A DNA stretch of 64,000 nt from Flavobacteriales bacterium. Lineage in GTDB: Bacteria > Bacteroidota > Bacteroidia > Flavobacteriales_D > Crocinitomicaceae. The notes under the pieces were generated by a model. It ran no database searches. It had not been told where the DNA came from and saw only the letters and a program-made list of their open reading frames with translations. This document shows, one piece after another, positions 4,689 to 53,135 of this stretch (position 1 is its first letter; each line of letters opens with the position of its first letter). The stretch is taken from positions 1 through 64,000 of the forward strand of contig JADFAL010000001.1 of NCBI GenBank assembly GCA_015665275.1, read 5' to 3'. The position numbers and the translations under genes are program-made.

Positions 4689-5447
4689 ATGTCCAAAGTA
4701 AATGTATTGGTTGTAGAAGACGAGTCTATCGTCTCCAAAGATATTCAGCACAGTTTGAAGAAGTTGGGTTACAATGTTGTGGGTGCATCTGCTACCGGTG
4801 AAAAAGCAATTGAGCTGGCAGGAAGTGAACAACCGGACATTGTTTTGATGGATATCATGCTGAAAGGTGATATGAATGGTATTGAAGCAGCGGAAGTTAT
4901 CAAGTCAAAATATTCCATTCCCGTTATATTTTTAACAGCTTACGCCGACGAATCCACCCTTTCAAAAGCGAAAATTACACAGCCATACGGATATATTTTA
5001 AAGCCTTTCAAGGAAATCGATTTGCATACGACCATCGAGATGGCGATTTACAAGCATGGAAAGGAATTAGAAGTGGTAAAGGAACGCGATCTACTATTCT
5101 CGATTGTTGAGAACAAAGAGAACAGTTCCAAAGATTTCATTTTCGTAAAATCGAATAGTAAGTTGGTGAAATTGCGTAATGATGAAATCTATTACATCGA
5201 AGCGTTAAAAGATTACGTTGTAATTCACACTCCAGGAACGCGCTACACGATTCACTCAACAATGAAGGATATCGAAGCCAAAATGGGAGAAGAGGAGTTT
5301 ATTAGAGTGCACCGATCTTACATTGTACACATTGATAAAATCGCAACGATTGAATACCCGAACCTTACATTGGAAAACATCAAGAAGATAATTCCTATTG
5401 GAGGATCGTATCGCGATGAGTTGAATAAGCGAATTCGGACGGTTTAG
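4689..5447 (+). CDS. LytTR-family response regulator
   Basis: 252 residues: a receiver domain (~1-125) with the acidic pair at 11-12, phosphoacceptor Asp55 in LMDIML and the conserved KP dipeptide. A linker then leads to a LytTR DNA-binding domain (~150-252) with VKSNSKLVKL and the FIRVHRSYIV motif typical of LytTR. It probably binds promoter DNA as a phosphorylation-driven dimer and acts as output for the PAS kinase just upstream; the pair is co-directional. Target genes are unknown. Confidence 0.93.
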   Translation: MSKVNVLVVEDESIVSKDIQHSLKKLGYNVVGASATGEKAIELAGSEQPDIVLMDIMLKGDMNGIEAAEVIKSKYSIPVIFLTAYADESTLSKAKITQPYGYILKPFKEIDLHTTIEMAIYKHGKELEVVKERDLLFSIVENKENSSKDFIFVKSNSKLVKLRNDEIYYIEALKDYVVIHTPGTRYTIHSTMKDIEAKMGEEEFIRVHRSYIVHIDKIATIEYPNLTLENIKKIIPIGGSYRDELNKRIRTV

Positions 5448-5484
5448 TCTTTAAACGTGGATCGATCGGAGTTGAGATGCAAAA

Positions 5485-7629
5485 CTATTCCTCTTCAATT
5501 AACTCCAAATCAATCTGACGCTTACGAACAGAAACCTCGTAGATACGCACCTTCACAGGATCACCAATGTTATATTCCTTCTTCGTTTTCGAACCAATAA
5601 TAGTGAACGAATCTGCGTCGAAATAAAAACGATCTCCGGGAATTTGTGCAATTGGAATCATTCCTTCACAATGGTTTTCTGTCATTCGCACAAACATTCC
5701 GAATTCAGCAATTCCAGCTACAGTTCCCTCGAATATTTCTCCGATCTTATCCATAACAAATAAAGTCTGGAAGTACTTGGTACTTTCGCGTTCTGCTTCC
5801 ACAGCTTTTCGCTCCATTCTTGAAATACGTTTCGCAACGTCGTTCAGATCGTTTCCGTAAGTCAGTTTCTTGTTATGGATTGCTTCAAATAATATACGGT
5901 GTACGATCAAATCGGCATAACGACGAATAGGGGATGTGAAATGCGCGTAATGTTCAAAAGCGAGGCCGTAGTGACCAATATTTTGCGTTTCGTAAGACGC
6001 CTTCGCCATGGATCGAATGGCCATTGACTGGATAATAGAATACTCATTTTTCAAACGAATATCTTGCAACAAAGCGTTGATTCGTTTTGAAATCATGCGC
6101 TCATCAGAGAGATCAATTTCGTATCCAAATTTTTGGACAAAGAGATCAAACAACTGAATTTTTTCTGGACTAGGCTTGTCGTGACAACGATAGATAAATG
6201 GAATTTTAGGAGCGTCTTTGTCGTCAGGCTTAGAAATAAATTTCGCCACACTTCGGTTAGCCAAAAGCATGAATTCCTCTATTAATTTATTTGCGTCTTT
6301 AGAAGTTTTAATTACCACTTCTTCGGGATAACCTTCGTCGTCCAAACGGAAGCGAACTTCTTGTGATTCAATGTTCATAGCACCCGATTTTAGACGTCTT
6401 TTCCGCAAAATTTTAGCGATTTTATCTAAAATAAGGATTTCATCACGGTAATCTCCTTCAGCTCCTTCTATGATTTCTTGTGCATCTTCGTAAGCAAATC
6501 TGCGGTTCGAATGAATCACAGACTTCCCAAACCATTCTTTATAAACCTTTCCGCTTTCATCCATTTCGAAGACTGCAGAAAAAGCAAATTTATCTTCATT
6601 AGGACGAAGGGAACAAGCCATGTTCGATAGTTGCTCTGGTAACATTGGAATTACTCGATCTACCAAGTAAACAGAATTAGATCGCTTCAATGCTTCGGCA
6701 TCCATAGCGGATCCAGGTCGTACATAATGACTTACATCGGCAATGTGAACACCAAGTTCAATGTTCCCGTTCTTCAATCGTTTGAATGAAAGAGCGTCAT
6801 CAAAGTCACGAGCATCGTGTGGGTCAATGGTAAAGGTGTCGACATCTCTGAAATCGCGTCGTTTCACAACTTCATCTGGATCCAGTTCCATACCGACTTG
6901 CTCAGCTTCTGACATCACGGCATCTGGGAAAGTGTAATCAATTCCGTTGTTGACCAAAATACTGATCATCTCCACATCATTTCCACCACTATTCCCTAAG
7001 TTTTCTATAACCTCACCATAAGGGTTGTCGGCAGATTGTGGCCAAGCAGTAATGCGAACCAATGCCTTATCACCGTTTTTAGTGCCTTTCATCTTTCCTT
7101 TTGGAATGAAGATATCGGTACCTACTTTCGAATTGTCGGGAACTAAGAATGCAAACTTATCTTCTTCCTGAATGGTTCCTACAAACTGGGTGCGTTCACG
7201 CTCTTCCACGCTTACAATAACCCCTTCGTTTCGGGAATTTCCTTTCTTGGTAATTTGAATGGTAACACGGTCACCTCCCAAGGCTTGATTCAAGTTTTTC
7301 GGATGAATAAAAACATCACTAAGAGAGGGGTCATCTAAGACCACAAACCCGGCTCCTCTGGGTGTAATCTGAAGTGTTCCAATGAGTGCACTTGAGTTGG
7401 AGTTCAGCGCGTAGACACTGTGTCCGGACTTCATTAAAAAACCTTGTTTTGCTAGATCTTCCAAAACGCTAAACACCAGTTTACGCAATGCGGCATCGCG
7501 CACATCAATCAAATGACAGATTTGTTTATGCGTTAAATTGGATTCCGGATTTTTGGTAAAGACTTTTCGCAGCGTTTGTGTTAAGCTTTGTTTCAGCTTT
7601 TTGTTCGGCGACTTTTTGCGTTTCGACAT
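5485..7629 (-). CDS. rnr: ribonuclease R
   Basis: 714-residue RNase II/R-family 3'-to-5' processive exoribonuclease, which degrades structured RNA in the cytosol. Domains in order: a lysine-rich N-terminal winged helix (~1-75), cold-shock/OB domains (~80-240), the RNB catalytic domain, and a C-terminal S1 domain (~625-712). The RNB domain has the metal-binding DPHDARDFDDA motif near residues 268-282, and the S1 domain includes a GMFVRM segment. Length and architecture match RNase R rather than RNase II. It is convergent with the LytTR gene and divergent from ferritin. Confidence 0.96.
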   Translation of the reverse strand: MSKRKKSPNKKLKQSLTQTLRKVFTKNPESNLTHKQICHLIDVRDAALRKLVFSVLEDLAKQGFLMKSGHSVYALNSNSSALIGTLQITPRGAGFVVLDDPSLSDVFIHPKNLNQALGGDRVTIQITKKGNSRNEGVIVSVEERERTQFVGTIQEEDKFAFLVPDNSKVGTDIFIPKGKMKGTKNGDKALVRITAWPQSADNPYGEVIENLGNSGGNDVEMISILVNNGIDYTFPDAVMSEAEQVGMELDPDEVVKRRDFRDVDTFTIDPHDARDFDDALSFKRLKNGNIELGVHIADVSHYVRPGSAMDAEALKRSNSVYLVDRVIPMLPEQLSNMACSLRPNEDKFAFSAVFEMDESGKVYKEWFGKSVIHSNRRFAYEDAQEIIEGAEGDYRDEILILDKIAKILRKRRLKSGAMNIESQEVRFRLDDEGYPEEVVIKTSKDANKLIEEFMLLANRSVAKFISKPDDKDAPKIPFIYRCHDKPSPEKIQLFDLFVQKFGYEIDLSDERMISKRINALLQDIRLKNEYSIIQSMAIRSMAKASYETQNIGHYGLAFEHYAHFTSPIRRYADLIVHRILFEAIHNKKLTYGNDLNDVAKRISRMERKAVEAERESTKYFQTLFVMDKIGEIFEGTVAGIAEFGMFVRMTENHCEGMIPIAQIPGDRFYFDADSFTIIGSKTKKEYNIGDPVKVRIYEVSVRKRQIDLELIEEE

Positions 7630-43187: not shown

Positions 43188-44486
43188 TTATAGTTTCTCT
43201 ATTTTTTTTCGATGCAAACGGTCGTTTTCGCAATGAATTTCAAGCATGTATATTCCTGATTTTAAAGATCCTAACTCCAAAGTCGATTCAGGTTTATGTT
43301 CCTCAAAAATAAGCCTACCGTGCACATCGAACACCGTTACTTTTTCAATGGTTGTAGGGGATTGAATCTGCAAAGTTGTAGTGAAAGGGTTTGGCCCAAT
43401 AGCAAGTTGCTCCGAAGGCTCCGCTAACCCCAAATTGAACTGCGTATTTTCATAAAACCAAAGTGCTCCGCCATCTACGGTGGCCAGGATGTCTAAATCT
43501 CCATCGGCATCAATATCTACAAATTCCGGAAGTACCACCGGAGCAATGCCACCGGTTATACCAAATGGATTCAATTGACCGCCATCAAACAAAGGAGCAT
43601 TTGCATTAGCCAGATTTTGAATGTACCTCAAGTTTCCGCCGGTTTCACCTACTAGCATATCTAAATCGCCATCCATGTCCAAATCCCCCATAGTGGGATG
43701 CGAGAAATAAACTGGGTTCGGAACTAAATCAAAGGGGTTGCTAAGTGGTGCAACAAATCCCGGAAGTACCGAATCACCTTGGTTCTCAAAGTAAATCAAC
43801 CCTCCTGCCTCGCCACTCATGATGTCATAATCGCCATCATTATCTAAATCTGCAAACTCTGGCATCGAAATGTAAGACCCGGCACTAAGACCCAAGGCAT
43901 TCACAACAGGTACGCTAAAAAATGGATTTGTCGCCGTTCCAATATTTTGATAGTACATGTGATTTCCGCCGTACTCTCCCGTTACGATATCCAAATCTCC
44001 GTCATTATCCAAGTCTGCCGCTGTGATGAAAGCGTAATAATACGAACTCGTTAACCCAAACGGGTTGGTTTGAGCTGGTTCAAATACGGGGTTTTCAGGT
44101 GTTCCAGAGTTTTCTATGTAGTCTAGTGTTCCGAAAAAACCACCCATAAGAAGATCGAAATCGCCGTCGCCATCCAGATCCGCAGGGCACAAACCACCGA
44201 CGTAATTGGTACTGTCTACTACAAAACCAAAAGGATTCTCAACGGGAGGAGCGAAATTTTGTGCATTCGAATTCCAAGAAAGGCCCAATGCGAGACAAAC
44301 CGTGCTCAACCATGCCTTGATTTGACCGTTGAAAAACCAATCTGGCAGCGATTGCAAAATGGATTTAATCTTTAATGCGCATCTGCGCAAAACATCTTTT
44401 GATGCGCCGGTTGCAATAAGTCGATTGAACTCTCGAATCTTAAAGTTGAGTTGACGAATCCTTCTTGAAAATGGCTTTGCGTGCAT
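43188..44486 (-). CDS. VCBS/FG-GAP-repeat protein with 76-residue leader and T9SS type-A sorting domain, copy 2
   Basis: 432 residues. A basic helical leader of ~55 residues precedes the hydrophobic signal core (~57-73), and cleavage is predicted after NAQ at 76. Then come about five repeats of ~60 residues, each with a calcium-loop DLDxDGDxD and a conserved ENPFG(L/F) element. The C-terminus is a type-A sorting domain (AIGPNPFTTTLQI, VFDVHGRLIFEE). It is closely related to the gene at 50725 throughout, including the leader length. The propeller-like repeats could bind glycans or proteins; no enzyme motif. It sits directly downstream of the glycan cluster, in the same orientation. Confidence 0.87.
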   Translation of the reverse strand: MHAKPFSRRIRQLNFKIREFNRLIATGASKDVLRRCALKIKSILQSLPDWFFNGQIKAWLSTVCLALGLSWNSNAQNFAPPVENPFGFVVDSTNYVGGLCPADLDGDGDFDLLMGGFFGTLDYIENSGTPENPVFEPAQTNPFGLTSSYYYAFITAADLDNDGDLDIVTGEYGGNHMYYQNIGTATNPFFSVPVVNALGLSAGSYISMPEFADLDNDGDYDIMSGEAGGLIYFENQGDSVLPGFVAPLSNPFDLVPNPVYFSHPTMGDLDMDGDLDMLVGETGGNLRYIQNLANANAPLFDGGQLNPFGITGGIAPVVLPEFVDIDADGDLDILATVDGGALWFYENTQFNLGLAEPSEQLAIGPNPFTTTLQIQSPTTIEKVTVFDVHGRLIFEEHKPESTLELGSLKSGIYMLEIHCENDRLHRKKIEKL

Positions 44487-44582
44487 AATTCCTCCACAAT
44501 TTAAGCAGAAGCATGCTTGTTTGAAAATTAAGACGACGCAATTTTGCGCATTTTAAACAGGTCAAATGCAGCGGAAGTATTG

Positions 44583-45944
44583 CTAATTTGGATTAGCGCC
44601 TTCAATTAACTGCGCCAATTCGTAATCGTACTGACTGAAAACGCTGAAAGAAGACTCTTTGTCGATAATCATATGACCCACCAAACCGGCAATCAGTTTT
44701 CCTGATTTCTCAAAAACGGATCTACGCACAACGGATACTCCTCCGGAATGACGGAACAAGGCATCACGTTCAAGCCTTGTAAACTGATCACGCTCTAAAA
44801 TAGGGTGAAGCCCGTCACCTTTATGCACATAGAACAATGAGTTGTCGGCCTTTACACTAATCAATGAGTCGGAACCGAAAAGAAACATTGTGTGAATGGC
44901 ATCGTCAATTTTATGTGGTTTAAGGAAAGGATATTCTACCGTGATAAGACAGATGCTATTGAACATCATCGTTTTGATTTCTGTCTGAGTTAGAATTTCC
45001 TGAATGGTTCCATTGAGACTTTCGTTCAAACGCGCTAGGTCTTGACTACGATGATGAAATAAAACCTGATCCTTTTCCTTCAGATCGGTGTCGATAGCTT
45101 TTTGGACATTTTGATCTGGTGAGGTAACCACTATTGCAACGTGATTGGTTGCTTTAAGTGCTTGACGTATTTTTCTGCTAATGAAGTTTGTGTTCCCAAT
45201 GGGTTTGTACGCAATATCCTTTTCACCACCACGCACAGGAATTACAATTAGCGTACTTGTATCTTCGTCGCTTTGTTTGATGTAATCCGCATTGATTTGA
45301 GCTCTTGTATCGAGAATTCGGTTTTCATTCGAAGTAAGGTTGGCACCATGTTGACGGTAATAAAACAGCGGTGTTCCAACGTTGGAAACGTAGAATTTTC
45401 GGGTAAACTTTACCCAAAGTTCGTATCCATCTTGACACGTATAATTTTCGTTGTAACCTCCTAGTTCTTTCAGGAACTTAGTGCGAATCATGGTACAGGC
45501 TCCATGCGCCGCTTGATCGAACAACTGAACTTCTTTGTCAAAATCATGACGAATTTCCTGTGAAATGATTTGGTTTTCCTTGTTGACCAAGTAATAGTTG
45601 GGAAAAACCAACCCCAACTCATCATCGCTTTCCATTTTAGCAGAAAGCTCTTCCAACGCACTTTCGTGAAAGTAATCGTCAGCATCCAGTCGCATAATGT
45701 ATTTACCGTTTGCAGCGTTCATTGCCACGTTGTTGGTTGCGTTGAGCCCTTTGTTTTGCTGGTAAATTATTTGAACCTGCTTGTGCTCTCTATATTGTTC
45801 AATAATGTCTTTCGAATTATCGGTAGAGCCGTCATCAATGATGAGCAACTCAAAATCTTGACACGATTGATTCAAAACGGACTCCACAGCGTACTTAATG
45901 TAGGCACCGTAATTGTAGTTTGTGATGTAAACAGTTATGAGCAT
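44583..45944 (-). CDS. GT2 glycosyltransferase fused to CMP-sugar synthetase-like domain
   Basis: 453 residues in two parts. Residues 1-~225 are a GT-A family 2 transferase (ITNYNYGAYI, IIDDGSTDNS, metal-binding DADD at 87-90, GACTMIR). Residues ~232-450 resemble an acylneuraminate cytidylyltransferase: IPVRGGEKDIAYKPIG near 236-251 fits the nucleotide-binding PxRGGSKGIPxKN loop, LITVEYPFLKPHKIDDAIHTM fits the LQPTSPLR region, and DSLISVKADN the SVVSV strand. The loop is degenerate (GEKDIAY), so activity is uncertain. Last gene of the nonulosonic-acid-type cluster. Confidence 0.8.
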   Translation of the reverse strand: MLITVYITNYNYGAYIKYAVESVLNQSCQDFELLIIDDGSTDNSKDIIEQYREHKQVQIIYQQNKGLNATNNVAMNAANGKYIMRLDADDYFHESALEELSAKMESDDELGLVFPNYYLVNKENQIISQEIRHDFDKEVQLFDQAAHGACTMIRTKFLKELGGYNENYTCQDGYELWVKFTRKFYVSNVGTPLFYYRQHGANLTSNENRILDTRAQINADYIKQSDEDTSTLIVIPVRGGEKDIAYKPIGNTNFISRKIRQALKATNHVAIVVTSPDQNVQKAIDTDLKEKDQVLFHHRSQDLARLNESLNGTIQEILTQTEIKTMMFNSICLITVEYPFLKPHKIDDAIHTMFLFGSDSLISVKADNSLFYVHKGDGLHPILERDQFTRLERDALFRHSGGVSVVRRSVFEKSGKLIAGLVGHMIIDKESSFSVFSQYDYELAQLIEGANPN

Positions 45945-45949
45945 TTTGC

Positions 45950-46570
45950 TTATTTCTTTTCGAGCGGTTTGGCAGGAATTCCCGCGACTACCTGATGTTC
46001 TTTCACGTCCTTGGTAACAACCGCATTACTCCCGGCGATAGCACCTGTTTTCATTGTAACGCCCGGTAAGATTACAACGTGCGCCCCACACCAGACATTC
46101 TCCTCTAAAACCACCGGAGAATGCGTATATCCTTGATCCTGAATGTAACCGGTTTCCTTGAAGTTGTGCATGCTCGTCTGTACATAGACAAACCCCGAAA
46201 GGAGTACCTTTTTACCAAGTTCAATGCTATCACCACCATTTAATACGGAATACAGCCCAATTCTTGCACCGGAACGGATTTTCACAGAAGCGTTGTTAGC
46301 CCCAAGCACACGAACTCCACGGTCGATGCGATTATCACCTTCAAATTGCACCGTTGAGCCTCCATGAGCACGCAACTCAACGTTTCTTCGGAAGTAAACA
46401 TTATCTCCAATTATTATTTTGGCGTGATCTGTGATTTGAATATCTGGCCAAGTGTCGCAGCGAAACCCTTTTCCAACCTGAAGCTTCTTGGATTTAAATA
46501 GAATCTTGAACCAGAACCCTTTCCATCCGGGCGTTCTATTTTTTAAGTATAGCTTAATTCCAAGTAGCAA
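45950..46570 (-). CDS. hexapeptide-repeat (left-handed beta-helix) acyltransferase
   Basis: 206 residues, WbbJ/maltose-O-acetyltransferase type. Hexapeptide turns run from ~45 to 195 (IIIGDNVYFRRNVELRAH, ARIGLYSVLNGG, VWCGAHVVILPGVTM), ending with GIPAKPLEKK, the usual C-terminal motif. It lacks an upstream NAT-like fold and is probably an O-acetyl- or other acyltransferase acting on a sugar of the cluster. It lies 5 bp from the fusion gene and 18 bp from the NeuB-like gene. Confidence 0.88.
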   Translation of the reverse strand: MLLGIKLYLKNRTPGWKGFWFKILFKSKKLQVGKGFRCDTWPDIQITDHAKIIIGDNVYFRRNVELRAHGGSTVQFEGDNRIDRGVRVLGANNASVKIRSGARIGLYSVLNGGDSIELGKKVLLSGFVYVQTSMHNFKETGYIQDQGYTHSPVVLEENVWCGAHVVILPGVTMKTGAIAGSNAVVTKDVKEHQVVAGIPAKPLEKK

Positions 46571-46588
46571 AATGAATGTATCAAAATA

Positions 46589-47599
46589 TTAGGTCAACAT
46601 TGACCAGCTTAATTTTTCAAATGCCTTCGCATCTTCTGTAAGCTCCTTTCCAATCACCTTTTCGAAGTCTCTTGCATCGATTCCATGATTGGGTCGCAAA
46701 TATACTAAATTCTCAGGGCTAAGTGTGGTTCCGGCTTTCAGGTCCATTGCAGGATAAACGGCTCGTCTGAATGTGATTAGGTGATCTCCCTCAACAGATT
46801 GTGGCTCTTTTACTTTCGAGCCTTGAAGTTGATTAATGACATTAATTTTCTCGTTCAGTTCCAAAACTTCATCACGCGTAAGCGAAACCTTATGGTCCCT
46901 AAACTCCTTTCCCTTTCTTGTATCGGTGAAATGGAACTCTAAAATTTGAGCCCCCATTGCTACTGCAACTTCTAGCGCATACATTCCCTCAGTATGATCA
47001 GAGTATCCGACAGGAAGATTGTGTTTTGCCTTTATTTCGTGCATCACTGAAAGATGAGCATACTCTGCCGGAATAGGGTACATGGAGGTACATTGCAAAA
47101 CCGAGAGATATTCGGGGTCTTTGTAGCGCTCATCGCAGGATTGAATAAACCGAATCGCATCATCTACCTCTTCTGCGCTGGATAAACCAGTGGAAAGAAT
47201 GATAGGTTTACCTAAAGCTGCTGTTTCTTTGAGTACAGGGTATGCGGTCATGTCTCCAGAGCCAATTTTATAGATATCCATGTACTTATCAATCCATTCA
47301 AAATAGTCAGGATTCCAAACAGACGCCATAAAGCCAACACCTGCTTTTTGACACATTTCCGCCAATTCGATGTAGAACACTTTGTCCAACTCGAACTTCT
47401 TGAAGTGCTTATTCCGAACAGGGTTTTCTACCGGACTAACTAAGGAGTCTCCCGAATATAGCTGAAACTTGATGTAATCGACGTTTGCTTCAATTGCAAG
47501 TTGCGTGAGTTGTTTTGCGTATTCAAAATCACCTTCATGATTTCCGCCGATTTCCGCAATCATTAATGGGCCACCATTCCTACCTTTCCAATTGCTCAT
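46589..47599 (-). CDS. nonulosonic acid synthase (NeuB/SpsE family)
   Basis: 336 residues. The TIM-barrel synthase domain (~10-260) has IAEIGGNHEGD at 14-23, KFQLYSGDSL, KIGSGDMTAYPVL, LQCTSMYPIPAEYAHL and GYSDHTEG. The C-terminal SAF/antifreeze-like domain is ~272-336 (PNHGIDARDFEKVIGK). It condenses phosphoenolpyruvate with an N-acylated amino sugar to give a sialic-, legionaminic- or pseudaminic-type acid; which one cannot be told from sequence. It overlaps the cytidylyltransferase gene by 20 bp. Precursor enzymes (dehydratase, aminotransferase, hydrolysing epimerase) are not in the window. Confidence 0.92.
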   Translation of the reverse strand: MSNWKGRNGGPLMIAEIGGNHEGDFEYAKQLTQLAIEANVDYIKFQLYSGDSLVSPVENPVRNKHFKKFELDKVFYIELAEMCQKAGVGFMASVWNPDYFEWIDKYMDIYKIGSGDMTAYPVLKETAALGKPIILSTGLSSAEEVDDAIRFIQSCDERYKDPEYLSVLQCTSMYPIPAEYAHLSVMHEIKAKHNLPVGYSDHTEGMYALEVAVAMGAQILEFHFTDTRKGKEFRDHKVSLTRDEVLELNEKINVINQLQGSKVKEPQSVEGDHLITFRRAVYPAMDLKAGTTLSPENLVYLRPNHGIDARDFEKVIGKELTEDAKAFEKLSWSMLT

Positions 47600-48272
47600 A
47601 AGCGTTCTTTATATCTTGTAAATTATAATTTTCGTATTTCTCTCCCAGAATGGTAATCATCTGGTCAATGTGTTCAAAGTCTTCGGCTGTATCCAAAGCG
47701 AGTTGAATTCCTTGAATGTTGTCAATCGTAGTATTATAGGAGTATTTCGTACTCCCCCAATCGTTTTGATAAAGCGCTAATGTCACATGCTCTCTATATT
47801 CGGCAGAAGCATTGATTTTGTCAAAATGTTCCGCATAGAAACTGCGTCGTACAATTTCAATGCTCATTCCCTTCGGATAAGTGCGATCTTTTACGTTGGA
47901 AAGAAAATCGTATGTTCCAGATTTTGCCTCCGCAATCATTTCCGACATACAGTCTAGATCAATGAAGATGTTATCACCGTTGGTTCTGATCAGGTAGTCA
48001 AAGTTTTGAGATGCGCCAGCTTGTAAAAACCGTTGAGCGGCATTTTCAAGGCTGCCACGAAAACAATTCCAGTTGTTTTTTGCTGCAAATTCGGCAATTG
48101 GATCGTCGGTAGATTCCTCCGAGGTAGCAAGGACAATATTTTCGGTGGGCAATAGTTTACGAAGTCGGTTGTACGTATGTTCAATTGCTGGAATTCCATG
48201 CAACGGTTTTAGAACCTTACCATAAAGGCGCGAAGAATTGTATCGTGCAATAATTACCGCTCCGACTTTCAT
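47580..48272 (-). CDS. SpsF-like cytidylyltransferase-family protein
   Basis: 230 residues of the CTP_transf_3/SpsF family, with the nucleotide-binding start IIARYNSSRLYGKVLKPL (7-24), RTNGDNIFIDLD and FEHIDQMITIL. Homologues follow spsE in Bacillus and activate or transfer sugar acids. Being translationally coupled to NeuB, it is the best candidate for CMP-activation of the product, alongside the weaker domain in the GT2 fusion. Confidence 0.87.
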   Translation of the reverse strand: MKVGAVIIARYNSSRLYGKVLKPLHGIPAIEHTYNRLRKLLPTENIVLATSEESTDDPIAEFAAKNNWNCFRGSLENAAQRFLQAGASQNFDYLIRTNGDNIFIDLDCMSEMIAEAKSGTYDFLSNVKDRTYPKGMSIEIVRRSFYAEHFDKINASAEYREHVTLALYQNDWGSTKYSYNTTIDNIQGIQLALDTAEDFEHIDQMITILGEKYENYNLQDIKNAYEQLER

Positions 48273-48274
48273 AA

Positions 48275-48838
48275 TTACCGTTTGCTTATTTCTTTTGCAG
48301 GGATGCCACCAACAATAGTATTCGGCGCTACGTCGTCTTTAACAAGGGCAGACGCAGCAATAACAGCGCCATCTCCAATGGTAACCCCCTTCAATATTTT
48401 GACCCCTGTTCCAATCCATACGTCGTTCCCAATTTTAATTGGAGCGGTTTGGTTTGGTTGCTGATTTATTAGCAGTCCCTTTTCAATACCATGATCGCTA
48501 TCAACGAAATATACAAATGGAGCAATGAGGCAATTGTCGCCAATTTCAATGGACTCTGAAGCAAAAAGGTGTGAATGATATCCGAATGTAGTATTCTCTC
48601 CAATTCGAACGATAGCTGTTTCGTTGCATGCACAAATACGAGCTCCGGCTTTAATCATGGCATGGTTTCCAATATGTACATTGCCTGGAAAACGCATTAT
48701 ATCGACTTGTTTATCGAAAAACACGCCTTCTCCGCAAGTACCCAAACGTTGCGATTGACGAAACTTACGCCATTTGTGGGCGATTGTCATTTTGGTGTGT
48801 TTTCTAACCTGAGATGTCATCGTAAGAGATTTTTTCAA
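48275..48838 (-). CDS. hexapeptide-repeat acyltransferase
   Basis: 187 residues. Hexapeptide turns from ~50 (VHIGNHAMIKAGARI, IGENTTFGYHSHLFASES), the HGI loop typical of the sugar O-acetyltransferase subgroup (YFVDSDHGIEKG), and VWIGTGVKILKGVTIGDGAV. It ends GGIPAKEISKR. The first ATG overlaps the previous gene by 35 bp; an internal ATG at 48790 (MTIAHKWRKF), 13 bp after that gene's stop, is an equally plausible start. It may acylate the amino group or a hydroxyl of the nonulosonic acid or a glycan residue. Confidence 0.85.
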   Translation of the reverse strand: MKKSLTMTSQVRKHTKMTIAHKWRKFRQSQRLGTCGEGVFFDKQVDIMRFPGNVHIGNHAMIKAGARICACNETAIVRIGENTTFGYHSHLFASESIEIGDNCLIAPFVYFVDSDHGIEKGLLINQQPNQTAPIKIGNDVWIGTGVKILKGVTIGDGAVIAASALVKDDVAPNTIVGGIPAKEISKR

Positions 48839-49694
48839 AGGCGTCTATAAAAGAACCTTCGGTTAGATTAAATATTTGTGATCCTTCAAGCGCAGCGTAT
48901 TCTTTCAAAAACCAATAAGCCTTGAACGAGTAGTAGAACTTGTGCATTACTTCGTGCAACTTCATGGTTTTTAGGCTGTTTGGATGAAAGAAGGGTTTGG
49001 CGTTATCTGAAAGCAATGTGCTGTTTAATGATTTTAATTGATCCGCGTAGAAATGCTTTTGTGCAGCCATAACCACATTATCGTTTGTGACAAAAACCTC
49101 CGGAATCCACGAATGATCTGCACCCGCAATGTAAATAGTTGGATATCCTAGGTTGATTCCAAAAAGAATGGAAGGAATTAACACGTTGTGGGGTCTCGGG
49201 CAAGCTTTGTAGGAGCGCAGTGATTTTTTGAAGAACTGCGGAAAATCATCGAGCGGAGTAAGATTAAAATAGTTGACTTTAATGTTCGGATTTTGCTTCA
49301 TGTGTTGTTTCCAAGACTCGGAACTTCTAGCGACCATCGGAACAAAAAGATGCATTTCCCAATCTACCTTTTCTACAAGAAGACTGAATATTCGTTTTCG
49401 ATCGTTATCCCAAACTTCGTTTTCATCCTTGCTCCAATATTGCTTAGAAACAATGCTGTAAAAGCGAGGCTTAAACATTAAAAACTCTTTGGTGGCCGCG
49501 AAATAATTTACGGCAAGAAAGTCAGAAGTAGTGCTTAGCTTGCTCAGAGAGTCCAAATCATTAGAGAGGGACGGCCCATTACCCAATACAACCAAACTGT
49601 CTTTTGATTTCGACGCTTTAATCTTGGTGCTTTTAGACTTGAGCATGATTTTCAAGCGGCCCTCCAGTTTTATTTTGAACGATTCGTATCCCAT
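48804..49694 (-). CDS. GNGPSL-motif protein, candidate glycosyltransferase (DUF115/GT42-like)
   Basis: 296 residues. After a basic lead, LVVLGNGPSL at 34-43 matches the nucleotide-binding start shared by CMP-sialic-acid transferases of family GT42 and by DUF115/MptE-like proteins. Also visible are YSIVSKQYW, a TIYIAGADHSW motif after a strand, and a C-terminal IFNLTEGSFIDAFEKI, which is closer to DUF115. Context suggests transfer of the activated nonulosonic acid, or a kinase-like role of the MptE type; the assignment stays open. Confidence 0.6.
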   Translation of the reverse strand: MGYESFKIKLEGRLKIMLKSKSTKIKASKSKDSLVVLGNGPSLSNDLDSLSKLSTTSDFLAVNYFAATKEFLMFKPRFYSIVSKQYWSKDENEVWDNDRKRIFSLLVEKVDWEMHLFVPMVARSSESWKQHMKQNPNIKVNYFNLTPLDDFPQFFKKSLRSYKACPRPHNVLIPSILFGINLGYPTIYIAGADHSWIPEVFVTNDNVVMAAQKHFYADQLKSLNSTLLSDNAKPFFHPNSLKTMKLHEVMHKFYYSFKAYWFLKEYAALEGSQIFNLTEGSFIDAFEKISYDDISG

Positions 49695-49703
49695 TTGAGG
49701 TTG

Positions 49704-50603
49704 CTACAATTTTTTACTAATAAAAAACCCAGTGAAAACATACCAACGAACCATCACTACATATTTTGCTTTCATCGTCTGTCCTTTGAATAGGAACGGA
49801 ATAGCCAAAACCAAAGATGCGCCAAATTTGAAGATGTATTCAACCACTTTCATAAAACGAGTTCCGAACCCATAATCCTTCAATCGAATGGCCTCACTTT
49901 GACCAATAACTTTTGCCAGGCGAATCACGAATGATCTCTCTAAGCGATAATCGTCGATGAAGTGTTCTACTTCCATAGCAGGGACGTACAATATTTTAAG
50001 GTTGGCTTTTTTGAGTTTATCGAAAACAAACTTCTCGTCACTACGTGTATGTAAATCTGTATTGAAACCGCCGTGCTCTTCAAAAAACTCTTTTCGATAT
50101 GCCATGTTGCAACCTACTGGGTACTTCTTTTCGAAAGGCTTTACCTGTTCTCCCATGTCCATTCGGGATACAAGTCCTTCAACGTATACAGACAACCATT
50201 CCGGATCTTTCCCCGGATTGTAGCGCGGAATTACCTTGCCACCGAAGGAGATATATTCTTTGTATGCGTCGTTTTCTGCAAATGCTTTCAGCGTCGAAAC
50301 GTATTTTGGTACAGCGAATCCATCATCATCGATGAAGCAAACAATGTCACCCGTTGCTGTTGTTATTCCTCTGTTTCTGGCAAAAGAAAGTCCAGGTTGT
50401 GTTTCCTTTACGTATACTACATTTAGTTGAGGTTCGTCTGCAACAAATTTTTGACAAATTTCCTCCGTACTGTCCGAAGAGTTGTTGTTTACTAGTACGA
50501 TTTCAAAATTCTCTGGAGCTTCTGTTTGGTTTTTCAAATGTTCCAAACATTCAGGCAAATAGAGTTCGCGATTATAAGTACAAATGACAACAGATACTTT
50601 CAT
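49704..50603 (-). CDS. family 2 glycosyltransferase
   Basis: 299 residues. GT-A fold with VVICTYNRELYLPECL, VNNNSSDSTEEI, the RNRGI motif, metal site DDDG near 92-95, and the acceptor-side GGFNTDLHTRSDEKFVFD. A membrane-associated hydrophobic helix near 255-275 suggests an inner-membrane-bound enzyme. It transfers one sugar from a nucleotide donor to an unknown acceptor. It is the first gene of the seven-gene cluster, preceded by a 121-bp gap that holds the terminator of the upstream VCBS gene. Confidence 0.9.
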   Translation of the reverse strand: MKVSVVICTYNRELYLPECLEHLKNQTEAPENFEIVLVNNNSSDSTEEICQKFVADEPQLNVVYVKETQPGLSFARNRGITTATGDIVCFIDDDGFAVPKYVSTLKAFAENDAYKEYISFGGKVIPRYNPGKDPEWLSVYVEGLVSRMDMGEQVKPFEKKYPVGCNMAYRKEFFEEHGGFNTDLHTRSDEKFVFDKLKKANLKILYVPAMEVEHFIDDYRLERSFVIRLAKVIGQSEAIRLKDYGFGTRFMKVVEYIFKFGASLVLAIPFLFKGQTMKAKYVVMVRWYVFTGFFISKKL

Positions 50604-50673
50604 TGATTTAAACGAAGGATTGAGTGGTTAAAGATAACACTTTTGCACTAGGAGAAATTGGGCCGTACAATGT

Positions 50674-50706
50674 AAAAACCCTCCCTATCAAGGACAGGAA
50701 GGACTT
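50674..50706 (-). terminator. intrinsic terminator after VCBS-repeat gene copy 1
   Basis: On the minus strand CCTTCCT pairs with AGGGAGG (one wobble) around a nine-base loop and is followed by GTTTTTAC. It lies 19 bp after the gene's stop and so separates it from the glycan cluster. Confidence 0.6.
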
Positions 50707-50724
50707 TCAAATATGCGTTGTAAG

Positions 50725-52041
50725 TTATTGTTTTTCCAATTTCTGGCGGCTTATGTTGCCTTCGGTATCTACTACCTGAATTAGGTAAACGCCTTTTTTC
50801 AAGTGCTCAAGATTTACGCTTCCGTTTAGACTTATTTGGCTGTGTACAATTTTACCAGTCATGTCCATAACTTCTAACAAATCCAATTGAGCATCTCCAC
50901 TGAAATTGACTTCGGATGCAAATGGGTTCGGTCCGATGGCAATATTGTTGGCTAGCTCATCTATGCTTGCATTGAATTGCGTGTTTTCAAAAAACCAAAG
51001 ACTTCCATAATAACCAGACCCAAGAACGTCAAAATCACCATCGTTATCAATGTCTACAAATTCAGGAAAAATAAAGTCTGACACATTATCGATGAGTCCA
51101 AAAGGGTTTACCTGAGGAGCTGCGAACGCTGGGTTTTGCGCCGTTCCAGTATTTTCGTAAAAGGCAAAGGTTCCATAGTTTTCAGCAGTAAGTACGTCGT
51201 AGTCTCCATCTCCATCAATGTCTGCAACTGTCGGGTTTTGAAAATAGGCCGCGTTCGCCGTAATACCAAACGGACTTGTTACTTGAGCTGCAAACGCTGG
51301 ATTTTGTGCTGTCCCTGTGTTTTCGTAATAAACTACCGCTGGTCCTACACCGTATGCAATGGAGCCGGAAATGATATCAAAATCACCGTCATCGTCCAAA
51401 TCAACAAAGCTTGGCATGTCAAGAATCGAAGAGTTTGAATTCAAGCCAAATGGATTCGCCTGAGCCGCTGCAAATGAAGGGTTTGTGGCGGTTCCAGTGT
51501 TTTCAAAGTACACCAAATCACCGTAATACTCGCCAACTAAAACATCGATGTCTCCATCATCATCTAAATCGGCAGTAGTAATAAATGCGTAATAATAGGT
51601 ACTTGAAAGCCCAAATGGGTTGGTTTGAGAAGGTCCAAAAGCAGGACTGCTGGCAGTGCCAGTATTTTCAACATACTGGATAGCACCATAATATCCGCCC
51701 ATTAACAAATCGTAGTCTCCATCTCCGTCTAAATCTGCAACTCCAAAGCCTCCGATATAAGAAGTGGAGTCTATCGCGAAGCCAAAAGGGTTTTCAATGG
51801 GAGCAGCAAATTGCTGCGCGTTTACAGCACCGCTAAATCCGAATACGATGGCAAGCGCTCCAAGTTTGTGTGCTAGTTGTCGAGTTGATAGAACACCACG
51901 AAGATTGCTAATTAACACTGCAATTTTTTGTCGGATTGTATCCACAAATGCTTTTGGTTGACGCGCTTTCATCGCCTGTTTCATCTCTTTGATCAGTCGG
52001 TCTAATTGACGGACTTTTCTAGAATGGTAGTTATGTTTCAT
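50725..52041 (-). CDS. VCBS/FG-GAP-repeat protein with 76-residue leader and T9SS type-A sorting domain, copy 1
   Basis: 438 residues. A long basic helical leader (1-55), signal core ~57-73, and cleavage expected after NAQ at residue 76, exactly as in copy 2. Then six ~60-residue repeats with NPFGL and DLDDDGDxD calcium loops and ENTGTAxNP turns (~80-360). A type-A sorting domain ends it (AIGPNPFASEVNF, GVYLIQVVDTEGN). The two copies share most of their length and bracket the glycan cluster. Probably a cell-surface or released adhesion/propeller protein; ligand unknown. Confidence 0.88.
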   Translation of the reverse strand: MKHNYHSRKVRQLDRLIKEMKQAMKARQPKAFVDTIRQKIAVLISNLRGVLSTRQLAHKLGALAIVFGFSGAVNAQQFAAPIENPFGFAIDSTSYIGGFGVADLDGDGDYDLLMGGYYGAIQYVENTGTASSPAFGPSQTNPFGLSSTYYYAFITTADLDDDGDIDVLVGEYYGDLVYFENTGTATNPSFAAAQANPFGLNSNSSILDMPSFVDLDDDGDFDIISGSIAYGVGPAVVYYENTGTAQNPAFAAQVTSPFGITANAAYFQNPTVADIDGDGDYDVLTAENYGTFAFYENTGTAQNPAFAAPQVNPFGLIDNVSDFIFPEFVDIDNDGDFDVLGSGYYGSLWFFENTQFNASIDELANNIAIGPNPFASEVNFSGDAQLDLLEVMDMTGKIVHSQISLNGSVNLEHLKKGVYLIQVVDTEGNISRQKLEKQ

Positions 52042-52061: not shown

Positions 52062-53135
52062 TTACGAATGTTTTGCCCAAAACGTTGAGTTCGGAATGGA
52101 AATCCCCATCTTATGTTCAGGTTTTAAGGTGTTTAGAATGTTTGGTCGCAGTTTATTAGCGAGCACATGAACGTCATAAATTTCATCCAAAGAAGTTTGG
52201 TACGAAATCTTCCCAGCAATACTGGCAGTTGGTAAATGTACTATCACGATTCCGGCTTCGTTGGCGTCTTCTGCAAAGTCTAATTTCGCAAATGTTGATG
52301 AATTTTTACGAAGTTTTGATAGTCCAATGAAGAGATAGTCTTGGTACAAATCCATTCCACGAACAAACCCGCCCACTTGAATTACAGTTTCGTACGTTCC
52401 ATTTTCAGTATCTACTTTGATCAATTCCCCAGTCGCAGAAAGAAGGCAATACAGCTCTCCGTTGTAAATTCGCGGCGAATGCGGCATGGCTAATCCGTCA
52501 ACGATAACTTCATTGGTTGTGACGTCCATGATCACTCCCGTTTTGGTAATGTTTTCTCGCCAACTTTGTGTTGTGTTTCCCGTGTTGAATGCCGTTGCAT
52601 ATTTTGGTAACCCGTCTTGCATCGCCATTCCATTCAAATGACAACGATCTTCAGAGACAATACGATCAACAAACCAGGGCTGCCAATAGGGAGTAAAGTT
52701 GTAATCGTCATCGAGTGAGATTATGCAAGAGAACAAAGTATTTATTGCGTAGAGTTTTCCGTCTTTTCCAAAATTGAGATCGTGAATATCTACTTGACCC
52801 GTGTGGTAGGTCAGGCGAGGCATGTATAAGGCATCGTATTTCTGCGGGGCTGGCGGATAAAAGGCGGCTAAATCTTTTGAATTGGAAAATACTTGAACAG
52901 TATCTTTACAAGCTAAGGCTAATTTGTCTTTTTTCTTATCCTGTGCAATTCCCATAGGCTTGTCGAACGTCCGTGGAAGTTGAACGATTGAATGTTCGTC
53001 TTTTGGTGAAATAAACACCAATTTTCCGGCCTGATATGTGGTGATTGCCAAGGTGCAACCAAGTCGCGTGAGCAACTCAGGAACTTGCGAAGTATATTGA
53101 CAGGCGAAGGGCGCTAAAGATGGATCAGGTTGCAT
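52062..53135 (-). CDS. TIGR03032-family protein (beta-propeller, unknown function)
   Basis: 357 residues with the family features: start FACQYTSQVPELLTRLGCTLAITTYQAGKLV, a middle of alternating blades (PRTFDKPMGIA, HLNGMAMQDG, MPHSPRIYNGELYCLLSATGEL), and VGGFVRGMDLY, no signal peptide. TIGR03032 proteins are predicted cytosolic propellers of unknown function and are often found beside glycan or T9SS genes. It lies 20 bp upstream of the VCBS copy 1 start, same strand, so the two may be co-expressed. Confidence 0.83.
   Translation of the reverse strand: MQPDPSLAPFACQYTSQVPELLTRLGCTLAITTYQAGKLVFISPKDEHSIVQLPRTFDKPMGIAQDKKKDKLALACKDTVQVFSNSKDLAAFYPPAPQKYDALYMPRLTYHTGQVDIHDLNFGKDGKLYAINTLFSCIISLDDDYNFTPYWQPWFVDRIVSEDRCHLNGMAMQDGLPKYATAFNTGNTTQSWRENITKTGVIMDVTTNEVIVDGLAMPHSPRIYNGELYCLLSATGELIKVDTENGTYETVIQVGGFVRGMDLYQDYLFIGLSKLRKNSSTFAKLDFAEDANEAGIVIVHLPTASIAGKISYQTSLDEIYDVHVLANKLRPNILNTLKPEHKMGISIPNSTFWAKHS

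Follow-up and report, generated by a model that had tools for sequence, protein, structure and literature searches.

A probable nonulosonic acid glycan cassette located between tandem T9SS cargo genes of a Flavobacteriales bacterium

We analyzed a stretch of 64,000 nucleotides from the genome of a Flavobacteriales bacterium of the Crocinitomicaceae (contig JADFAL010000001.1, positions 1 to 64,000), hereafter referred to as the window, with a focus on seven genes lying between VCBS-A and VCBS-B, two tandem genes coding for VCBS-repeat cargo of the type IX secretion system (T9SS). We propose that the seven genes constitute a single operon-like cassette for a nonulosonic acid (NulO), with the chemistry described below, and that it works independently of the VCBS genes, a reading to which we assign a probability of roughly 0.68. 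Its probable role is to make a sialic-acid-like sugar and to attach it.

Composition of the cassette and proposed chemistry

The seven open reading frames (ORFs) span positions 44583 to 50603 and are tightly packed, with gaps of 2-18 nt and overlaps of 20 and 35 nt. From 50603 down to 44583, they code for a family 2 glycosyltransferase (GT2), a protein referred to here as GNGPSL, a hexapeptide protein, an SpsF-like protein, NeuB, a second hexapeptide protein and a GT2 fusion. VCBS-A precedes the cassette, VCBS-B comes after it, and all of these genes are on the minus strand, which confirmed the layout given in an earlier note of seven co-directional genes with a VCBS T9SS gene on either side. 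The flanking proteins, described there as closely related, are indeed paralogues but share only 43% identity. A type A C-terminal sorting domain is present in both (TIGR04183). The main features are as follows.

52062-53135, minus strand: TIGR03032/DUF4915 protein, conserved neighbor of VCBS-A, outside the glycan cassette (PF16261, 375.8 bits, and TIGR03032, 355.4 bits, both above cut-off)
50725-52041, minus strand: VCBS-A, FG-GAP T9SS cargo, signal peptide preceded by a long extension (PF13517 and Por_Secre_tail; TIGR04183, 39.5 bits, cut-off 23)
50674-50703, minus strand: predicted intrinsic terminator of VCBS-A, hairpin and T-run (same place in G000, G020 and G025)
50622-50645, minus strand: candidate promoter region of the cassette (23/24 bases common to G025)
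49704-50603, minus strand: GT2 glycosyltransferase, HpsE-like (PF00535, 112.2 bits; NF038302, 140 bits, below the cut-off of 300)
48804-49694, minus strand: GNGPSL protein, probable NulO transferase with a Maf/GT42-like model fold (PF01973, 19.9 bits, below the cut-off of 34.6)
48275-48838, minus strand: hexapeptide acyltransferase 1 (PF00132); start codon uncertain, ORF overlapping the preceding gene by 35 nt
47580-48272, minus strand: SpsF-like cytidylyltransferase, probable CMP-NulO synthetase (PF02348, 72.6 bits, above cut-off); 20-nt overlap with neuB
46589-47599, minus strand: NeuB-type NulO synthase with SAF domain (PF03102, 203.5 bits, above cut-off)
45950-46570, minus strand: hexapeptide acyltransferase 2 (PF00132); methyltransferase in the same slot in several relatives
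44583-45944, minus strand: 453-aa protein, GT2 (residues ~1-210) fused to a putatively degenerate CMP-NulO-synthetase fold (~225-453), by fold and alignment
44487-44582, minus strand: spacer before VCBS-B that aligns with the one between VCBS-A and VCBS-B in G020 and marks the cassette's right edge
43188-44486, minus strand: VCBS-B, FG-GAP T9SS cargo, paralogue of VCBS-A (FG-GAP and Por_Secre_tail; TIGR04183, 31.3 bits, cut-off 23)

G000 is the source genome (3.64 Mb, 115 contigs, 96% complete), and G012, G020 and G025 are congeners. An assembly chimera is unlikely because the GC content over the region stays at 0.40-0.45 and two congeners share the gene order of the outer flanks.

NeuB is the sole PF03102 match in the source genome and aligns with NeuB of Neisseria meningitidis over the greater part of its length, including the SAF domain. 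It scored 255 bits with the NeuB model TIGR03569 (equivalog cut-off 399.65) and 186 bits with the PseI model. PF02348 has two matches in the genome, the SpsF-like protein and a protein on contig C26 that we take for a putative KdsB. SpsF is a likelier activator of the sugar as a cytidine monophosphate (CMP) derivative than the fused CMP-NulO-synthetase fold. In the available text of PMC7439481, Bacillus subtilis depends on spsE for legionaminic acid and on the putative cytidylyltransferase gene spsF to transfer this sugar to the spore surface.

The structure model of GNGPSL (predicted local distance difference test, pLDDT, 90.6) matched best the flagellin glycosyltransferase Maf (5mu5, Z 13.2) and the sialyltransferases CstII/CstI (2x63, Z 11.9; 2p2v, Z 11.8), with 12-16% identity to GT42 and Maf proteins; no PDB sequence match was found, and the match to PF01973 (MptE-like) was weak. 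We do not file GNGPSL as a member of GT42 or Maf, yet it looks and probably works like one. Around the best 80 of its 302 relatives, two of which belong to the congeners G012 and G025 (L075 and L076, respectively, among the loci), NeuB/PseI was found in 55 loci, an SpsF-like gene in 37 and NeuA in 12; by comparison, NeuB is matched somewhere in the genome of 24/60 sampled relatives. Within the genus, GNGPSL occurs in 3/34 genomes and a close NeuB in the same three. Because of its Maf/GT42-like fold and the company of NulO synthase genes, we read GNGPSL as a probable NulO transferase, probably of a new family, which gives a likely role to an unnamed family found mostly in Bacteroidota records. 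Altogether, the gene families, the GNGPSL fold and the NeuB/PseI company support the NulO-type glycan cassette proposed in the earlier note.

The same note had counted two GT2 genes, and the family assignment holds for both. However, the 453-aa protein is more than a plain GT2, as its C-terminal half has a CMP-NulO-synthetase fold (Z 24.1, rmsd 2.8 and 202 residues aligned with 6ifd_B; hhalign probability 99.6%). Its model has a pLDDT of 73.5 overall and under 50 for residues 367-399. The GSKxIPxKN and C-terminal DxD motifs have a catalytic role in CMP-NulO synthetases. Both patterns are absent in 11/11 aligned rows, in which a different pattern is kept; therefore, we read the fused domain as a degenerate or repurposed CMP-NulO-synthetase fold and, with the motifs missing, rejected a working CMP-NulO synthetase. 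The fusion gene was found in 6/399 genomes of the order, with at most four candidates scored per genome. The function of this conserved GT2 joined to a degenerate CMP-sugar-synthetase fold is open to direct testing.

As the earlier note had it, none of the seven genes codes for a precursor enzyme (NeuC, PseB/C/G or the Leg set), and the cluster may draw on a sugar pool made elsewhere. On another contig of the source genome (C8, L172:9696-13096), a WecB-type epimerase (319 bits, above cut-off), a PseC-like aminotransferase (295.5 bits, below cut-off) and a priming sugar transferase are encoded together. This appears to be another surface-polysaccharide locus and is a possible, unproved source of amino-sugar precursors.

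Gene families, folds, conservation of the cassette and its independence from the VCBS genes were computed; for the enzymatic steps, the acceptor and the location of the product, we infer the following. NeuB would condense phosphoenolpyruvate with an N-acetylmannosamine (ManNAc)-type sugar made elsewhere, SpsF would activate the product as a CMP-sugar and GNGPSL would transfer the sugar from it. The two GT2 enzymes would build the sugars carrying the NulO, and the hexapeptide proteins would acylate the NulO. The product would most likely end up as an outer residue on a lipid-linked surface glycan, for which a Wzx-type protein would act as flippase.

Several observations weigh against this reading. 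NeuB falls below both subtype cut-offs, such that no sugar subtype is assigned; the best named matches of SpsF are KdsB models, under cut-off; and no ManNAc-releasing NeuC scored over the curated cut-off in the source genome. The GNGPSL model also matches an MptE-type hydroxymethyldihydropterin pyrophosphokinase (8sd5, Z 10.2), its best Foldseek TM-score is a modest 0.49, and 25 of the 80 GNGPSL loci are without NeuB/PseI, some of these being cut by contig ends. No Wzx-like ORF was matched in the window. Neither SpsF nor GNGPSL is universal in the cassette, since SpsF is absent from L114 and L128, and GNGPSL from L168 and L170. Finally, a consensus terminator scan found 12 sites against a shuffle mean of 9.3, which is not above shuffles, and did not list the VCBS-A hairpin.

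The shortfall of NeuB against all subtype cut-offs, the KdsB matches of SpsF, the NeuC result and the high rank of the CMP-Kdn synthetase 9t4z as a match to the fused domain would also fit a sugar that is not a 5-amino NulO and is instead another 3-deoxy-2-ulosonic acid, such as Kdn. We consider this improbable, although it survives better than the other alternatives: NeuB scores highest with the NeuB model, and its alignment with the meningococcal enzyme extends to the SAF domain.

The NulO cassette appears to be present in several Bacteroidota families. The fusion gene occurs in 14 loci, window included, with the same cassette core. G012 has all seven genes in unchanged order, preceded by an 870-aa gene, presumably alaS, and followed by a Wzx-like gene. 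In G025, the cassette is at the same site as in the window, with a gene for an FkbM methyltransferase in first position and the decoration slot occupied by a methyltransferase. The cassette is a mosaic, since the identity of the window proteins to those of G025 and G012 is 90% and 82% for NeuB, but 63% and 69% for GNGPSL. The slot between NeuB and the GT2-NeuA fusion holds a second hexapeptide protein in the window, G012, L128 and L170, and a methyltransferase in G025, L078, L086, L168 and L169. This suggests an exchangeable slot and a swap of the decoration of the sugar, by an acyltransferase or a methyltransferase. A Wzx-like gene lies near 8/14 cassettes (seven detected by phmmer, plus L170 by Pfam), and none was matched in 20 kb of G025.

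Two side observations concern these loci. In L168 (genome G321), a glycosyltransferase of the BFO_1060 family (5191-6594; NF046086, above cut-off) is encoded at the position of GNGPSL, between the first glycosyltransferase and the first hexapeptide gene, and possibly replaces it; our literature search for BFO_1060 found no paper. Large YfhO-like membrane proteins are encoded near the NulO cassette in L068, L078, L086, L121, L168 and L169, and near a cluster of the pseudaminic acid (Pse) type in L073.

Independent occurrence of the cassette and the VCBS genes

The functional link between the cassette and the VCBS genes proposed in the earlier note was not upheld, as each occurs without the other. 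In G020, the TIGR03032 gene is followed by VCBS-A and, 148 bp further, by VCBS-B, with the same outer neighbors and no cassette. G016, as well as G046, which belongs to another family, carries TIGR03032 and a single VCBS-A homologue without glycan genes. VCBS paralogues away from glycan genes, which the earlier note had named, together with an absence of nonulosonic acid on them or the surface, as evidence against its own proposal, are thus found in relatives. Conversely, the cassette occurs without a close VCBS gene in G012 and in 11 further loci (stretches of 3-20 kb, three of them on contigs shorter than 8 kb). Bracket and cassette recur together in only one congener, G025. A VCBS protein was found at E 1e-40 in 4/34 genomes of the genus, with fragments in G005.

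The edges of the cassette are consistent with this independence. In G000, G020 and G025 alike, a hairpin with a T-run lies 3' of VCBS-A at a matching position (folding energies of -14.6, -17.4 and -19.9 kcal/mol), and VCBS-A is predicted to end in its own intrinsic terminator. The element that follows is common to G000 and G025, and the right-hand spacer aligns to the spacer separating VCBS-A and VCBS-B in G020. The terminator, the shared element and the right-hand spacer therefore set sharp edges for the cassette between two genes that form a pair even where it is absent. A sigma-70 scan returned 22 sites, and shuffled sequences gave 21.4 on average. VCBS-B might be transcribed by read-through from the cassette.

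Since relatives carry the cassette and the VCBS genes independently, their neighborhood is most likely positional and does not reflect a shared function, and we rejected the bracket as an inherited functional unit. Gain/loss trees do not distinguish gain of the cassette in G000/G025 from its loss in G020, the three genomes being nearly equidistant and the forks unresolved. A mobile element as carrier was likewise rejected; the window has no tRNA and no long flanking repeat (integrases were not searched for). The repeat families of the window are mostly inside FG-GAP genes, apart from one 22-nt inverted pair at 82%.

The earlier note had offered three functions that would tie the cassette to its neighbors. 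One of them, in which the VCBS propellers bind the surface glycan made by the cassette, has low odds. Both the VCBS proteins and the glycan are predicted to reach the cell surface, but the genes occur apart. What keeps this possibility alive at all are the Saprospiraceae loci L114 and L134, where a different T9SS propeller gene stands just before the GT2-NeuA gene, although these propellers are of another Pfam family, Ldl_recept_b. The T9SS-tailed genes in question are at L114:6344-7465 and L134:1029-2162.

O-glycosylation of the two VCBS proteins by a dedicated cassette is more doubtful still. The bracket itself is present in both G000 and G025, and 6/6 VCBS proteins of G000, G020 and G025 share one D(S/T)(A/I/L/V/M/T) site at residue 91. 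However, G020 has the pair and the residue-91 site without the cassette, the 12 cassettes without VCBS point the other way, and VCBS-A seems to be closed by its own terminator. Moreover, the motif shows no enrichment relative to shuffled sequences (VCBS-A, 1 vs a mean of 1.53; VCBS-B, 2 vs a mean of 0.98, P 0.265), and we rejected a wide O-glycan motif signal in these proteins.

A linking sugar or glycolipid for the attachment of T9SS cargo, to which the adjacency of cargo with type A tails might point, is the least credible of the three, as GNGPSL with a close NeuB, in 3/34 genomes of the genus, is too rare for a general T9SS anchor compared to VCBS-A matches in 35/36 (many via the T9SS tail only), and the linking sugars given in the available text of PMC11969387 differ in kind (N-acylated amino-sugar acids in Porphyromonas gingivalis and Tannerella forsythia, an alanyl-deoxyhexose in Prevotella intermedia). 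An independent NulO cassette remains our preferred reading, and the locus illustrates that a conspicuous gene bracket may reflect nothing more than position.

TIGR03032 proteins and extended FG-GAP cargo

The gene that accompanies VCBS-A codes for the TIGR03032/DUF4915 protein. Close relatives of this protein occur in 38/299 genomes of the order (43 matches), and we examined 40 of the 43 matches, leaving out two contig-end fragments of G068 and a partial match of G177. Among matches with at least 47% identity (28, of which 26 were examined), 25/26 adjoin an FG-GAP gene, whereas none of the 14 examined among the 15 matches with at most 44% identity does. The 25 paired loci comprise 19/20 of L183-L202, plus L203, L205, L206, L207, L208 and L071; the sole unpaired close homologue, L202, ends at its contig. 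In L070, which is outside the 26 examined, TIGR03032 likewise stands beside an extended T9SS FG-GAP gene. The FG-GAP gene is upstream of TIGR03032, not downstream, in L190 and L205, and some of the FG-GAP partners are weak matches (26-36% identity).

Where their start was readable, these FG-GAP proteins have an extension of ~40-65 residues, mostly basic, ahead of the signal peptide, whose hydrophobic core begins at residue 42-67 in 15/17 scored FG-GAP cargo proteins, the exceptions being L043 and L050, which have ordinary short signal peptides. In other T9SS cargo, the core starts at residue 13 or earlier in 18/23 proteins and late in 5/23. Five of the 45 tail-bearing proteins were dropped from this scoring for a weak hydrophobic core. 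Two marginal matches (E ~0.002) aside, these FG-GAP proteins are the only ones in the genus in which the extension was found. No signal peptide was seen by eye in the TIGR03032 protein, which is therefore presumably cytosolic.

These observations raise the possibility that the VCBS proteins have TIGR03032/DUF4915 as their real partner and that the two form a dedicated secretion module, in which TIGR03032 would recognize or hold the extension and control the export of its partner. We put this forward tentatively, as an unlikely yet testable proposal; the pair may act as a dedicated export or chaperone module. We know of no description of an export checkpoint of this kind for T9SS cargo. A literature search found no paper naming TIGR03032 or DUF4915. 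The TIGR03032 and FG-GAP pair is a more open lead than the cassette, and attention shifts to it accordingly.

Comparison with known systems

A literature search combining Fluviicola and sialic acid returned nothing on topic, judging from titles and abstract openings. Among described loci, the available text of PMC12871550 presents a Bacteroidota protein O-glycosylation locus (LFG type) that starts at metG and ends with two species-conserved glycosyltransferases. A wzx flippase gene, another mark of such loci, has no match in the window, in contrast with the Wzx-like genes near 8/14 cassettes.

The O-glycosylation locus of T. forsythia, as described in the available text of PMC6120980 and PMC6388019, resembles the window in that a NulO synthase and glycosyltransferases are encoded in one locus of a T9SS-bearing member of the Bacteroidota, with acyl and methyl decoration. 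However, the T. forsythia cluster contains a whole CMP-Pse or CMP-legionaminic acid (Leg) pathway, whereas the window cassette is without a PseB/C/G-type gene. Its NulO transferase is GtfS (445 aa), to which the GNGPSL type is unrelated, and the locus with the pse/leg genes and GtfS has Wzx, unlike the window. The sps genes of B. subtilis, in the portion of PMC7439481 available, likewise combine an SpsE/NeuB-type synthase with an SpsF-type cytidylyltransferase. In contrast, no counterparts of SpsC, SpsD, SpsG and SpsM were identified in the window cassette, and the transferase differs, a fused GT2 being found here.

With GT42 sialyltransferases (CstI, CstII) and Maf flagellin glycosyltransferases, GNGPSL has in common its fold (Z 11.8-13.2) and the company of a NulO synthase, while its sequence sets it apart, with PF01973 under cut-off. 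The C-terminal half of 44583-45944 shares the fold of NeuA, but is fused to a GT2 and lacks the motifs in 11/11 rows. The cassette is a NulO-type unit of a known kind, in which the variation lies in an unusual fused enzyme and in a transferase that probably represents a new family.

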